From Neovahlkampfia damariscottae (Eukaryota > Heterolobosea > Selenaionea > Neovahlkampfiida > Neovahlkampfiidae): a stretch of DNA of 64,000 bases. This document shows, in pieces, positions 15,209-62,827 of this stretch; the stretch's first letter is position 1, and the number at the start of each line of letters is the position of its first letter. The notes under the pieces are model-generated. The model was not told where the DNA came from. It did no database searches and saw only the letters and a program-made list of their open reading frames with translations. The stretch lies in the NCBI GenBank assembly GCA_016618085.1, contig JABLTG010000009.1:168591-232590 (forward strand), written 5' to 3'. The translations under genes and the position numbers were made by a program.

Positions 15209-15357
15209 ATATAAGTAAACTATTTAAATTGTTGAAGAATAAAATATTCATTTTGACTAACAAATTGTGTCCATTCATTGAAGTCTTTCGAATAATTTGA
15301 CGAAAAACTTCTTTTTCAAAAAATTCACAATTTTAAAAAGTATTTAAAAAATCCACC

Positions 15358-15429
15358 ACCGAATCCGGGGTTCGAACCCGGGTTTTCACGGTGAGAGCGT
15401 GACGTCATAAACCACTAGACTAATCCGGT
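15358..15429 (-). tRNA. tRNA-Glu (anticodon CTC)
   Basis: Folds as a standard cloverleaf on the minus strand: 7-bp acceptor (ACCGGAT with ATTCGGT, one G-U), 3-bp D stem, 5-bp anticodon stem TCACG/CGTGA with loop CTCTCAC (anticodon CTC), 4-nt variable loop, and T arm CCGGG-TTCGAAC-CCCGG. CCA is not encoded. No intron. A run of T on the transcribed strand just after the gene (15345-15350) can act as RNA polymerase III terminator. Internal A and B boxes match the consensus. Confidence 0.95.
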
Positions 15430-15513: not shown

Positions 15514-17026
15514 TCATTTTTTCTTTTTAGATTTATTTGTTTTTTTTGTTTTTTTATTTTCATCAACATTTTCAGGGGCCTTCAAGTTTTCTGAATTTTC
15601 AATAATTTCATTTTTCTGTGAAATTTTTAGGAGTTTCAAAACTTGTGATCCATCAACTGTGATAATTTCCAGCACATTTTCTGGGATTTTCTTTCTATTC
15701 TTCAAGAAACTCTTTAATACAGAAACAAAACGATCAAATTCATCTTCTTCTTTCGAAGAGAGAATTGCTTTTAAAACTTCAATTTCAACTTCATTCAATT
15801 CATGATATTTGAAGAACTTCTTGAAATTTTTTTCTGAATTAGGAGCAGATTTTGAAATTTCAGTTAAATGATCAAATTCTTTGTTCATTTTTTTCCAAAG
15901 GTTTTCAGAAAAATTTTTGAGTGATCTTTTAACATCTTCATTTTTTGTGAGGACTGAAAATACTTCATCCATTTCATTGTCTAGAACTTTTATCCATAAT
16001 TCAGCTTCCGACATTTTTCCAATTTGAAATTTATTAGTAGAATCATGCAATTTTCGGTACCATGTTGATTTAACCTTGTACAAATTTTGATTTTCAATAT
16101 TCAAAACAAATCCTTCTATATTTTTCAATTGTGATATTTTTTCAATTCCACTCTCTAAATCATCACCAAATTCATAATTTTTTACAATTTCAACTTTATA
16201 TTTTTCTGCACTTTCTTTCATATTCATATATTTGACATATTGACCTGTCAGATTATTTCTGATTCCAATTAGAATAAGTTTTGTCTCTTGATATTCAATT
16301 ATAATTTGATTTTTTGGAGATGTAAATTCAAATATTGGTGTAAAACCTTCATCCAACCAATGTTTTGAAAATAAAATTATATTCACTTTTGATTCATTTT
16401 TTAATTCATTTTCTTTTGAAAAGTTGTAGAATTGTTGATTTTCAAAAATGAATTCTTCAACCTTATTGCTCACTTCATTATTGAATCCCATTTTAGTTTT
16501 AAACCTTATGATATCATCATTTTCTTCTTTTATTAATATTGCAGTCACCTAACATTTAAATATACTTAATTTGAATTACCATTGAACCATCTTGAAGAAA
16601 ATTAAATCAAAAAAGAAAGAAATACCTAATTTTTCCAACCAGTAATGTTCTTTTCCCTTCAAATTTATATTCTTGGAGTTACATTCTTCAAGTTCTCCAT
16701 TAATATTGAAAAATTTGTGAAACGGACGATTGATACATTTCCCTGTGTTTTTATCAAAAACCAAACCTTTCACATTGATTGAATTATAGAAGATATTTAC
16801 CTCGAAGTTCTCTTAAAATTTGAAAATTCTCTTTTTCTTTTTTGTTTTTGGCTTTTTTTGGATTTGGAAATGTTTTTTCACTGTAAAAACGATAATTAAA
16901 ATAATATTGATTGTTTTTTTCTATTTCATAGAAACACTTTCCAATTTTTTCTTTTGTTTCTTCAATAGCCTCCCTTATTCTTGATATGTCATTCAATATT
17001 GGAAAAGAAAACTCCTCTTCGTTCAT
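15514..17026 (-). CDS. T4 Rnl1-like ATP-dependent RNA ligase
   Basis: RNA ligase of the T4 Rnl1 / fungal Trl1-ligase type, which seals 3'-OH and 5'-phosphate RNA ends through a lysyl-adenylate. After splicing, the nucleotidyltransferase motif I reads WLEKLDGSMVTAIL (Lys-x-Asp-Gly-Ser). Upstream is GLVFDKNTGKCINRPFHKFF, the region before motif I. Motif IV/V is EGFVLNIENQNLYKVKSTWY, with the Lys-x-Lys that contacts ATP. A C-terminal helical region (from about 16030) ends in a Lys-rich tail. Three introns: 34 nt, then 34 and 31 nt around an 11-nt exon. Start is ATG 17026; the longer frame begins with TTG. In tRNA splicing it would need separate end-healing enzymes, which are not in the window. 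Confidence 0.85.
16580..16590 (-). other. 11-nt micro-exon encoding part of RNA-ligase motif I
   Basis: ATGGTTCAATG is flanked by a 34-nt and a 31-nt GT-AG intron. It supplies the Asp-Gly-Ser-Met of motif I, so the active site exists only if this exon is included. Confidence 0.7.
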
Positions 17027-24298: not shown

Positions 24299-24380
24299 GA
24301 AATAAAACAATTTTCAAAATTCAATCTTTCGAATTCATATTCGAATTTAAATTAAATTTATCATTCAACTTTTTTATTTC
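24299..24380 (-). promoter_or_regulatory. SECIS-like hairpin overlapping and following the SelW stop codon
   Basis: On the minus strand the 82 nt fold as a form-II SECIS. Helix I is GAAATAAAA with TTTTATTTC. The quartet is UGAU (24363-24360) opposite UGAA (24316-24313), giving the tandem G-A pairs. Helix II is an 11-bp stem, AAATTTAATTT with AGATTGAATTT, including two G-U pairs. An unpaired AAA (24348-24346) follows at the usual distance. Helix III is TTCGAAT/ATTCGAA with a 4-nt loop. Every element of the eukaryotic consensus is present. The basal helix includes the TAA stop codon, which is unusually tight. Confidence 0.75.
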
Positions 24381-24699
24381 ATCATTTTTCGGTGGACAAA
24401 CCCTTTTTCCAACAAAATTTTTTCAATATCTTCTATTTCAGGGTATCTGTCTCCATGAAGTTTTTTGGAATAAATAATTTCATCACCAACTTTCACGTCA
24501 AATGATCCAGGAGTTTGATGTTTATCATCTTTTATTAATTTGATTCCAGGAAAGTCGTTTTTTAAATTACCTTTCAAAAGTAAAAATCGAGACCTAACAA
24601 TTAGAAATAGAAAGCAAACCAACTACCACCTCATGAAGAACAGACGTTGCTGTAATGAATGGTCACAGAGTCCTCTTTCTGCTTCAAAGTTTCCTGCAT
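24374..24699 (-). CDS. SelW-type selenoprotein (Rdx family) with in-frame TGA
   Basis: Two exons give a ~99-residue Rdx-family protein (SelW/SelT/SelH, thioredoxin-like fold). Exon 1 starts at ATG 24699 and ends in VTIHYSNVCSS, followed by TGA at 24633-24631, the exact Sec position of the CxxU motif. A 26-nt GT-AG intron (24619-24594) joins to SRFLLLKGNLKNDFPGIKL, the family's first helix. Then come TPGSFDVKVGDEIIYSKK and GDRYPEIEDIEKIL, matching the end of SelW. A SECIS-like hairpin follows. A competing 23-nt intron would skip the TGA but yields a hydrophobic stretch unlike the family. Ordinary ORF calling starts only in exon 2 with TTG. Confidence 0.75.
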
Positions 24700-25443
24700 T
24701 ATTCATCCAATAAAAATCCAAAGAAATAACCAATGAAATCTAATTAACTTTTTTCACTGAAGATGAACCAAAGTTGCAATTGTATTTTGGCCAAAATATC
24801 CAAGTGAAGAAAATTTTAAATAAGAATTCTCGATCTGAATGAAGTTACATTCAGTTGAAGAAACAAATTCGTTTGAAACAAGAAGACTTTTTGGAAGGAT
24901 TTCGCAAATTAATGCTGTAAAAAGTTGCTCAGAATGAAGGAATTTTCAAAAATGGAGGAAAAAAGCATATTCAAAATGATGGAATTTTCAAAATGATGAA
25001 AAATAAAATAGTGGAGTTTGTGATCATTTTTTATTCAAAATTATTCAATCATCAATCATAAATTGTTCAACAAACTATTCAAACCTAGAATCAAGGAACT
25101 GTTTGGTTGAAAATAAAAAACAATTGCTGAATAATGTAATTCTTAAACAAGATGATGAACTGTATTCAATGAATCCAACTTTAAAAGAGTTTTCAGTTTT
25201 AGAAAATTAAATCATGAAAATATTTGTATATTGATGTAAATTATAATGAAGAAAATGATTTTGGAACCATTAATATTGAAAATATTTTGGATTATCAAAA
25301 TTGTAATGTTTTTGTAAATGAAATATTTAAAAAAATAGATTTTTGTTTGATTCAGGTTTATTTGAATAAATAGTTGGAGTACAGATAAGACTTGTTTCCT
25401 TTTTTTAATTCATCGACATGGTCCACATATTTGTCCAATCAAA
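24700..25443. other. Gene-free stretch with probable coding relics
   Basis: Contains interrupted protein-like pieces on the plus strand: LKKQIRLKQEDFLEGFRK near 24850, LLNNVILKQDDELYSMNP near 25130 and YIDVNYNEENDFGTINIE near 25230, separated by stops and frame changes. No intron set I tried joins them. A short motif (GATGGAATTTTCAAAA and variants) recurs near 24935-25000. I recognise no family. The end holds the promoter of the CHORD-like gene. Confidence 0.35.
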
Positions 25444-60120: not shown

Positions 60121-62827
60121 CTATTCAATATCATTAATGTCAACTTGTTGATTTTTATCTTTCAATTCTTGGTAATTATTTTGTAATCTTTTAAATCTAA
60201 TAAATAAGATAACAATAATTGAAATGATAATTAAAATGAATAAAATTGAAATGATTGGAATTGAAATTAAAGTCCAAAATGGAAATGTTATAGTTGTTGG
60301 ACATGATGAAACAAATGGTTCACCAATTTTATCTGACCAACATTTTGAATTAATTTTTTGATAATAATGATATCTTTTACCATTTTCACATTTACCAATA
60401 ATTTCTTTAAAATCAATTTTATCAATACAAATTTCACATCCATGATGAGAATACACATCTATTTGATTATCATTAATAAATAAAACATCCTTCTTTGGTG
60501 AGAATTTTCTATTTTGATCTGGATAACACCATAACTTTATTGTTGTTTGATTTAATATTTTATAATAATCTGATATTTTTAATTCAAGATATTCATTTTT
60601 AAATTTAATATTCATTAATTCACCCATAGATATTTTTGTTTCATTTCTCATTTCACATAAATATCCATTACATAATGTTTCATCTTTTTTTAAATTTAAA
60701 ATATATTTCTTATTTTTATAATTAATTTCTATATTATTCATTAATGTGCTATTATTTATTTAATAATTTTAATCATCTTACTTTAATTCATAAAAATTAA
60801 ATATTCTCATTGTATTATTTATTATTTCATTATATTCATTTATTCCACTTTTCCATTCACATTTTGAAGATGATCTTTTTGAAATAAATCCATTTAAACA
60901 TTTTTCACATTTATTTGATTTTGAATATGAAAATTCATTTTCATTACATTCAATACAATTTGAATATGAATTATTATCATTTGGTGTATATTTACCAGAT
61001 ACACATGAAATACATTTATGATTCAATTCAAATGTACCATTATTACAAGGTGAACAATCAGTACCACCACCAATACCATTAATACCATCATCAATATTAT
61101 TTTTAATTTGTATTATTTTTCTAATTGATATTTTATTACAATTTGAATTTGATGAATGTTTTTTACCCAAATGAAATGAAATAAATAAATGATCAATTTG
61201 AATATTTTGTATTTTGATTGTTATATTTTTAAATGAATTATCATTATTATTACAATTATTATCACATGATAATATATTTAATATAGTTTTATTTAAAATG
61301 AAATGAACTTCACTTCCAATGAAACATGATAAATTATATTCGAAATATATTTCTTTTGATTTATTTATTGGTATTTGAATATAAGAAATAGATTCACCAT
61401 TTCCAATTCCAGAATCAATCAAATTACCTAAATATCTCCAACCATTTGATTTACAATTACCACTACAATTTGATTTAAATTCATAATTTAAATTTAAATA
61501 ATTATAATAATTTTTAATTTCATTTCCTTTTTTACATGTTTTACATGTTGAATTTTTAATATTATTAAAATCACCAATATTACAATAATTACAATTTAAA
61601 TCTTTAAATTCTTGACCAATATCACATAGTTTATCATTTTCATTACAATTAATTTCTATTGGTTCATTTAATTTAATTGAATTTGGATTTGAAATATTAC
61701 ATAAAATTGGTTTAATATAATTTTCATATTTAAATTTTAAATTATTTGTATAATTACATTTTGAATAAGTAAAATAAATTGAATCATTTTTACATGGATA
61801 ATTTGTTGTAAAACATTTAATAGATCCCTATTATATTTTTAAATATAAATTAATTCATACTTCAAATGATTCTTCACCAAATGGACATGTTTCACAAAAT
61901 GATGATTTTTCTACATTTGAAAATGTATTTCTTGGACATTTTAAACATTGTTTTGAATTCTTTTTTGAATAATAACCTTTTTGACAATTTAAACATTTTA
62001 AATTTAATTCATTCATTCCTTCAATTTTTAAATTTCTAATTCTACTAATATCTTCACCATAAGATTGTGAAAAATCTTTTGAATAAATCCATTTAATTTG
62101 ATGAAATCCTTTTTTTAAATTAATTTTAAAATATTTCCAATTTAATTGTCTTGATTCTTGAAATAAAATATTTTCATTTAAATAAAAAGTAAGAAAATCA
62201 TAATATTCTTCAGAATCAACTTTATATTCAAATGATATACTTCCATTTAAATTTTTTATCTTTTTTTTTAATTTTTTATTTTTCTTACTTCAAATTGATA
62301 ATTTAATTCTGATTTTGAATAATCATCATTCATTCCACTTTCTATAAATTCATCTTTTGCAATCCAAGGAGAACAACTATAATTATTTGAATTACTACAA
62401 AAGGTTTTCATTTGTATTGGTAAATTATTCCATTCATTCAATTCAAAATCAAAATTAGAGAAAGTACCTGGTTCACATTCTTCACATTTTTTTGAAGTAG
62501 AATTCATAAAATATCCACTTTTACATTCAAATGTACAGTCAACTTCAATATTCTCTGGTAAACTTGTAACACCTAAATAATAAATGTAATTGTATATTTA
62601 CCTTTTGTACAAGTTGCAGGTGGTTTCCAATAATGAAATAGTATTTTTTTACCACCAGAACATGATGAATAGTGTGTTCCAATATCTTGGTCAGTACAAA
62701 AAGTGGTTTCATTGAAAGTGTTTATTTGAAAACCACAAGTGACATCCTTACAATGATGGGAAAAACAAGTTTGATGTGAAAGTGAAATCAAAAAAATTAG
62801 ACAAATTAATTTCTGTAGCACATTCAT
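60121..62827 (-). CDS. ELAPOR (KIAA1324/EIG121)-like type I membrane receptor
   Basis: Signal peptide MNVLQKLICLIFLISLSHQ, then a long Cys-rich ectodomain: HYSSCSGGKKILFHYWKPPA, CEECEPGTFSNFDFELNEWN, LKCLNCQKGYYSKKNSKQCL, KCPRNTFSNVEKSSFCETCP, GTDCSPCNNGTFELNHKCIS. It continues with a mannose-6-phosphate-receptor-like region (EICIDKIDFKEIIGKCENGK, then RYHYYQKINSKC), one transmembrane helix (LISIPIISILFILIIISIIV) and a cytosolic tail. Order and spacing follow animal ELAPOR1/2, endosome-lysosome proteins linked to autophagy and sorting. About five introns. It stops with TAG. It is the last recognisable intact gene before the telomere. Confidence 0.85.

Follow-up and report, generated by a model that had tools for sequence, protein, structure and literature searches.

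Selenocysteine (Sec) decoding directed by SECIS elements has been described for unicellular eukaryotes in the selenoproteomes of Dictyostelium and Ostreococcus (PMC2375036); SelW, SelH, TR and GPx are among the selenoproteins that the available text of that paper gives for Ostreococcus tauri. According to the available sections of PMC2397514, SECIS elements lying within coding regions are functional and less efficient than those of the 3'-UTR, and one SelW (Carcinoscorpius) has a SECIS predicted inside its ORF; a coding-region SECIS is also mentioned for the fowlpox GPx (PMC6769590, in part). A literature search found no publication on selenoproteins in Discoba.

The locus described here lies in a 64,000-nucleotide stretch of the Neovahlkampfia damariscottae genome (the window; G+C 24.2%) and shares with Selenoprotein W (SELENOW, Rdx family) the Sec redox motif, the size, the Rdx domain and a SECIS placed 3' of the coding region. 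It differs from SelW in its predicted 26-nt intron, located 12 nt after the Sec codon, and from the SelW chain 2npb around the motif, where the alignment has gaps (CSSUGGSWSRF here, SGACGYKPKY in 2npb). C17orf37 (2ljk), a Cys homologue of SelW also known as Rdx12, belongs to the same family; its CEPC aligns to CSSU and has Cys where Sec stands here.

The gene is a new example of a well-known kind, because SelW selenoproteins of unicellular eukaryotes and SECIS elements in coding regions are already in print (available text of PMC2375036 and PMC2397514), and the compact placement of its SECIS is of modest interest. It indicates that this protist decodes selenocysteine in the eukaryotic style.

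Gene structure and family membership

The window contains, on the minus strand, a two-exon Rdx/SelW gene (24699-24374) followed by a SECIS-type hairpin (Table 1). GT-AG and GC-AG introns were enumerated from the ATGs near the gene start. The VTIHYSNVCSS-TGA-GG frame, starting at ATG 24699, met the RFLLLKGN frame through one intron (ends GTTTGC...GTTAG), and the remaining open splice solutions either dropped the CxxU stretch or used a different frame. The predicted splicing gives a product of 99 residues with CSSU at residues 20-23. The initial annotation had recognized an in-frame TGA at the Sec position of an Rdx motif and a 26-nt intron connecting it in frame to the rest of the fold. The first point was borne out by the PDB alignments, and the second agrees with the sequence, this being the sole joining intron and matching the junction of the relative P0002 described below.

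Table 1. Features of the SelW locus in the window, and genes of the selenocysteine machinery in the genome
Feature	Location	Strand	Remarks
SelW exon 1	24620..24699	minus	ATG 24699-24697; encodes MQETLKQKEDSVTIHYSNVCSS-U-GGSW; frame agrees with relative P0002
SelW in-frame TGA, U of CxxU	24632..24634	minus	PDB alignment: opposite a Cys of 2npb and, in 2ljk, opposite the later of the two Cys of CEPC
SelW intron (predicted), 26 nt	24594..24619	minus	GTTTGCTTTCTATTTCTAATTGTTAG; sole GT-AG intron found joining the CSS-TGA-GG and RFLLLKGN frames
SelW exon 2	24374..24593	minus	SRFLLLKGNLKNDFPGIKLIKDD...FVHRKMMK; stop TAA 24376-24374; Rdx match in genome-level profile search
Form II SECIS of SelW	24299..24380	minus	Unconstrained minimum-energy fold, descriptor scan, covariance model
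SECIS helix I, 9 bp	24380-24372 with 24307-24299	minus	Contains the TAA stop codon
SECIS quartet strands	UGAU 24363-24360, UGAA 24316-24313	minus	Fold
SECIS helix II, 11 bp	24359-24349 with 24327-24317	minus	Fold
SECIS unpaired AAA	24348-24346	minus	Fold
SECIS helix III, 7 bp	24345-24339 with 24334-24328	minus	Fold
tRNA-Sec	contig C93		54.4 bits, cut-off 47; anticodon UCA from alignment
SepSecS	contig C8		E 1.1e-104
SPS2	contig C99		Own in-frame TGA: KG-TGA-GCKIPQE
SBP2	contig C270		Chain 7zjw E 3.4e-26; next match L7a, 8.5e-5
EFsec	contig C46		Eukaryote-specific domains PF21208 and PF21131 over cut-off
PSTK	contig C284		PSTK models E 1.7e-27 and 2.1e-26

The spliced CSSU product passed the cut-offs of TIGR02174 CXXU_selWTH (NCBIfam; 36.3 bits, cut-off 34.2) and PF10262 Rdx (Pfam; 31.9 bits, cut-off 22.6), in agreement with the SelW-type identity first assigned to the gene. 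A PDB search with the same product (E up to 1) gave two matches, SelW 2npb (E 9.1e-5) and C17orf37 2ljk (E 0.0097), and U was placed on Cys in both alignments.

Three relatives at E ≤0.01 were found among 175 candidates (from 5.8 billion proteins): the genome's own deposited gene model (P0001, EukProt), P0002 (JGI metagenome) and P0123. These 175 candidates held no SelW relatives other than P0002 and P0123 beyond that model. P0002 showed 76% identity to the SelW product over 91% of the query, was aligned on both sides of the Sec site and ran continuously through the junction (CSSWGASWSRFLLLKGN). Around the intron site it reads VVTIHYSNKCSS-W-GASWSRFLLLKGN, where the W occupies the Sec position. 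Since P0002 is unbroken there, both the frame and the splice of the SelW gene are supported; its W may be a TGA translated under code 4, or a genuine TGG. In a structure predicted for P0002 (from three sequences; mean pLDDT 72.7, residues 21-23 below 50), a strand (13-18) and a helix (25-42) flanked the CxxU-equivalent site; together with the 2npb and 2ljk alignments, this places the CxxU between the first strand and the first helix. P0123 was 51% identical to the SelW product over 70 residues; it starts with an M aligned two residues beyond the Sec site, the start to be expected if an upstream TGA had cut the ORF call.

The deposited model P0001 is shortened and lacks the active site, as expected from the early remark that simple ORF calling truncates this gene; selenoproteins can thus be lost from the gene models of such genomes. 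P0001 is compatible with an alternative splice at GT 24626, whose 33-nt intron would avoid the TGA and yield a Sec-free product (MRWSRFLLL... or MNNAGNFEAERGLCDHSLQQRLFFMRW-SRFLLL...). This form has an open frame, and its intron length sits better within the range of the genome. However, it loses the first beta strand together with the CxxU motif, scores 25.6 bits with Rdx (vs. 31.9 bits for the CSSU product), leaves the SECIS purposeless and is contradicted residue by residue by P0002, which backs the other reading frame; we regard it as very improbable. A 23-nt GT-AG intron (24645-24623), which the initial annotation had itself set against its reading, would also remove the TGA in frame and give HYSNLVCFLFLIVRSRF, a SelW-like protein without CxxU, but it lowers the Rdx score to 26.6 bits, adds a hydrophobic stretch missing from P0002 and is shorter than every uniquely solved intron, so that we give it almost no weight. 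Both splices were rejected for their lower family score and their disagreement with P0002, and both still score above the Rdx cut-off because exon 2 supplies most of the score.

The locus is thus almost surely, as judged from sequence, a genuine eukaryotic SelW/Rdx thioredoxin-like selenoprotein gene in which UGA would be read as Sec after the 26-nt splice; every sequence test fits what looks like a real member of the SelW family shortened by the gene finder. The protein of 99 residues would most probably act as a small thiol/selenol oxidoreductase in which CSSU is the redox motif. Once the 26-nt intron is spliced out, the CxxU redox site of the mRNA would contain a UGA in frame; the SECIS immediately 3' of the coding region would bind SBP2, which would bring EFsec with Sec-tRNA(Sec), and the UGA would be read as selenocysteine.

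SECIS element of the SelW gene

The unconstrained minimum-energy fold recovered the form II SECIS proposed at the outset, with its UGAU/UGAA quartet, 11-bp helix, unpaired AAA and third helix, and also its pairing through the stop codon, which lies in the 9-bp helix I. The element has the UGAN/NGAN core, helix II and unpaired AA at 10-13 nt, and its spacing (12 nt from the quartet to AA and 31 nt from AA to GA) falls within both ranges given in the available text of PMC2375036 (10-13 nt and 15-39 nt). Four of 200 shuffles were as stable as this fold (z -2.41), and none of 200 when the sequence was trimmed to the hairpin (z -3.44).

A descriptor of quartet, helix and AA matched 8 times on both strands of the window, three times with 11 pairs, and among these three only the SelW element was mismatch-free. 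Ten first-order Markov surrogates gave 63 matches, 8 of them with at least 11 pairs; from these, the probability of a match of at least 11 pairs within ~60 nt after a given stop is roughly 4 in 10,000 (about 1 in 1,000 when estimated from the window's own two other 11-pair matches). The same descriptor recovered the SECIS elements of the C10 ORF, thioredoxin reductase (TrxR) and SPS2 described below, but failed to detect that of the SelH-like gene. When a covariance model was trained on four further SECIS of the genome, with SelW left out (R2), it placed the SelW element at the top of the window (30.7 bits, E 0.0015; runner-up 24.8 bits, E 0.024; E-values rough); the other matches, out of 17 at E up to 1, were treated as background. 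A chance hairpin was rejected on the basis of the descriptor counts in the window and the surrogates and of this top rank.

A second covariance model (R1) includes the SelW element; its score for SelW (47.7 bits) is no evidence, because SelW is in its training set. R1 gave 73 matches in the window at E up to 10, and those other than SelW were treated as background, including three under E 0.1 (24983-25039 minus, 62285-62334 minus and 16321-16373 plus). Across 16 other loci (61 kb), its matches at E up to 0.1 were confined to its own four training elements. As fair tests of these models we count only the scan of the window with R2 and that of the two GPx loci with R1, and covariation over the five elements overstates the support, because all five were chosen for this shape.

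The Rfam model SECIS_1 did not report the SelW element in the window at the gathering cut-off, in the genome at E up to 10 (133 of 496 candidates scored) or in the SelW locus (L019) at E up to 5. It was also silent at the SPS2 and SelH-like loci given to it, and none of its 3 genome matches reached its cut-off; the model is insensitive here for these reasons and, in our view, a SECIS_1 match is not a defining feature of a eukaryotic selenoprotein gene. The third of its genome matches (contig C197, 22.2 bits) was discarded, the ORF listing there showing no selenoprotein. At the gathering cut-off, the Rfam models gave a single match to the window, a tRNA gene (15357-15429 minus, 61.5 bits).

The SelW SECIS is the closest to its stop among the seven SECIS of the genome, with 8 nt separating the stop from the core AAUGA, versus about 22 nt for the SelH-like gene, 23 nt for the C10 ORF, 24 nt for SPS2, 24 and 26 nt for the two GPx genes and 41 nt for TrxR. 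The distance from the Sec codon to the SECIS core was 47 nt in TrxR, 122 nt in C10, 217 nt in the SelH-like gene, 239 nt in SelW and 1017 nt in SPS2 (introns of SelW and SPS2 excluded), and 447 and 410 nt, unspliced, in the two GPx genes. The design had been called unusually compact, which holds within this genome, but functional coding-region SECIS elements were already reported (PMC2397514, available text). The SelW element shares with those of fowlpox GPx and Carcinoscorpius SelW an overlap with translated sequence (PMC2397514 and PMC6769590, in part); here, in contrast, the part that extends into the stop and the end of the coding sequence is limited to the 5' strand of helix I, and the core lies 3' of the stop. 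Every ribosome that terminates at the UAA might unfold helix I, possibly along with the core located 8 nt downstream, so that completed translation of the same mRNA would throttle Sec insertion (a termination-coupled SECIS), an idea that we consider unlikely. AAUGA was preceded by UG in four of the five aligned SECIS of the genome; in Dictyostelium the core is preceded by UGUA (PMC2375036, available text).

Selenocysteine machinery and other selenoprotein genes

The genome (20,439,759 bases in 307 contigs) carries the eukaryotic Sec pathway: tRNA-Sec(UCA), PSTK, SepSecS, a Sec-type SPS2, EFsec and SBP2 (Table 1). The tRNA-Sec, SBP2, EFsec, SPS and SecS genes, whose collective absence would have spoken against the initial annotation, were accordingly all present. 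The tRNA-Sec gene was missed by ARAGORN, and the tRNA-Sec model gave six further matches at 47.2 bits, barely over its cut-off of 47; both of those examined were tRNA-Ser. The selB and PSTK models scored under their curated cut-offs. The best selB match (contig C200) looked by eye like an organellar EF-Tu and was rejected as EFsec in favour of the gene in contig C46. A U5 spliceosomal RNA gene adjoins SPS2 (L026:1949-2065 minus, contig C99; 45.7 bits, cut-off 40).

At least five further selenoprotein genes were recognisable (SPS2, thioredoxin reductase, two GPx and a SelH-like gene), and a sixth candidate has 37 residues. Thioredoxin reductase (contig C143, L022/L045) is large, ends in NC-TGA-G-stop (NCUG) and matched the TGR family (515.6 bits, cut-off 475.85). 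The GPx genes (contigs C221, L054, and C55, L055) have one TGA each, at the active site (NVASE-U-GLTP and NVACK-U-GLTP). In SPS2, thioredoxin reductase and GPx, the TGA stands at a known Sec site of the respective family. R1, naive to GPx, put a SECIS right after both GPx genes (E 3.7e-4 and 6.1e-5; 6.6 kb searched); a third match (E 0.028) fell within a GPx coding region.

The SelH-like gene (contig C47, L020 minus, ~1867-1489) has a TGA at the U position of SelH, and a SECIS-like hairpin. It reads GRT-U and seems to have lost the partner cysteine of CxxU; its scores were 20.4 bits with Rdx (cut-off 22.6) and 20.4 bits with CXXU_selWTH (cut-off 34.2). The 37-residue candidate (contig C10), MNNS-U-PSCYFALFFLIIQIVMSLFQRQPDEVAIERKR, has a TGA stop and one likely membrane span by eye, gave no match in Pfam or NCBIfam and is possibly a new selenoprotein family. 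Its SECIS (L021:1360-1570, C10:37457-37667) was the best genome match of the Rfam SECIS model (30.9 bits, cut-off 35), with a 13-bp hairpin (z -5.33). Folding energy did not support the SPS2 hairpin (z -0.29, with a minimum-energy structure other than a SECIS) or the SelH-like one (z -0.41); both are backed by the common motif and their position. The seven SECIS, together with the short introns, provide a small set of training data for this lineage.

A 290-aa frame in contig C10 (L018:955-1827) was also found to end in a Cys-type Rdx domain (FCTNC); it is an apparent peroxidase-Rdx fusion, the first half of which resembles, by eye, a dye-decolourising peroxidase.

Intron lengths and genetic code

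Fifteen junctions were tried. SelW and eight others were uniquely solved, the latter with introns of 28, 31, 34, 35, 35, 36, 38 and 39 nt. A further three junctions allowed two solutions each (31 or 19; 31 or 34; 38 or 41 nt); of the last pair, only the 38-nt intron leaves an in-frame stop. No intron solution was obtained for three junctions (SPS1, EF2 and PSTK). The SepSecS introns are 31 and 36 nt (by eye, translation-checked), one with the donor GTTTGT (vs. GTTTGC in SelW). The 26-nt SelW intron is shorter than the other uniquely solved ones (28-39 nt), yet it is in character for the genome, because the other introns are also short and the SepSecS donor is similar.

On the sequence evidence, TGA elsewhere in the genome is read as a stop, not as Trp. 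The two EF-1-alpha ORFs have four TGG each and no internal TGA, and one ends in TGA. Among the 26 window ORFs of at least 150 residues from ATG, not all of which are genes, the stop is TAA in 18, TGA in 5 and TAG in 3. As we read them, three of the seven SECIS-bearing genes (SPS2, C10 and one GPx) end in TGA, in keeping with termination at TGA where a SECIS is absent or too close. That the SelW TGA is a plain stop in a decayed gene, or Trp in an altered code, agrees with the W of P0002 at the Sec site but is extremely unlikely, given the tRNA-Sec and other Sec pathway genes, the six further genes that combine a TGA in frame with a SECIS-like hairpin 3' of the stop (2 of the 6 hairpins without energy support) and, for the altered code, which was rejected on this ground, the use of TGG for Trp and of TGA as a stop elsewhere.

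EF-1-alpha of animals and fungi carries an insertion; the two distinct EF-1-alpha genes found here (L028, contig C109, and L029, contig C247) both seemingly lack it. The best 120 of 8000 matches of the first (L028) were mostly metagenomic, and the closest among the matches listed were JGI proteins, with up to 94% identity.
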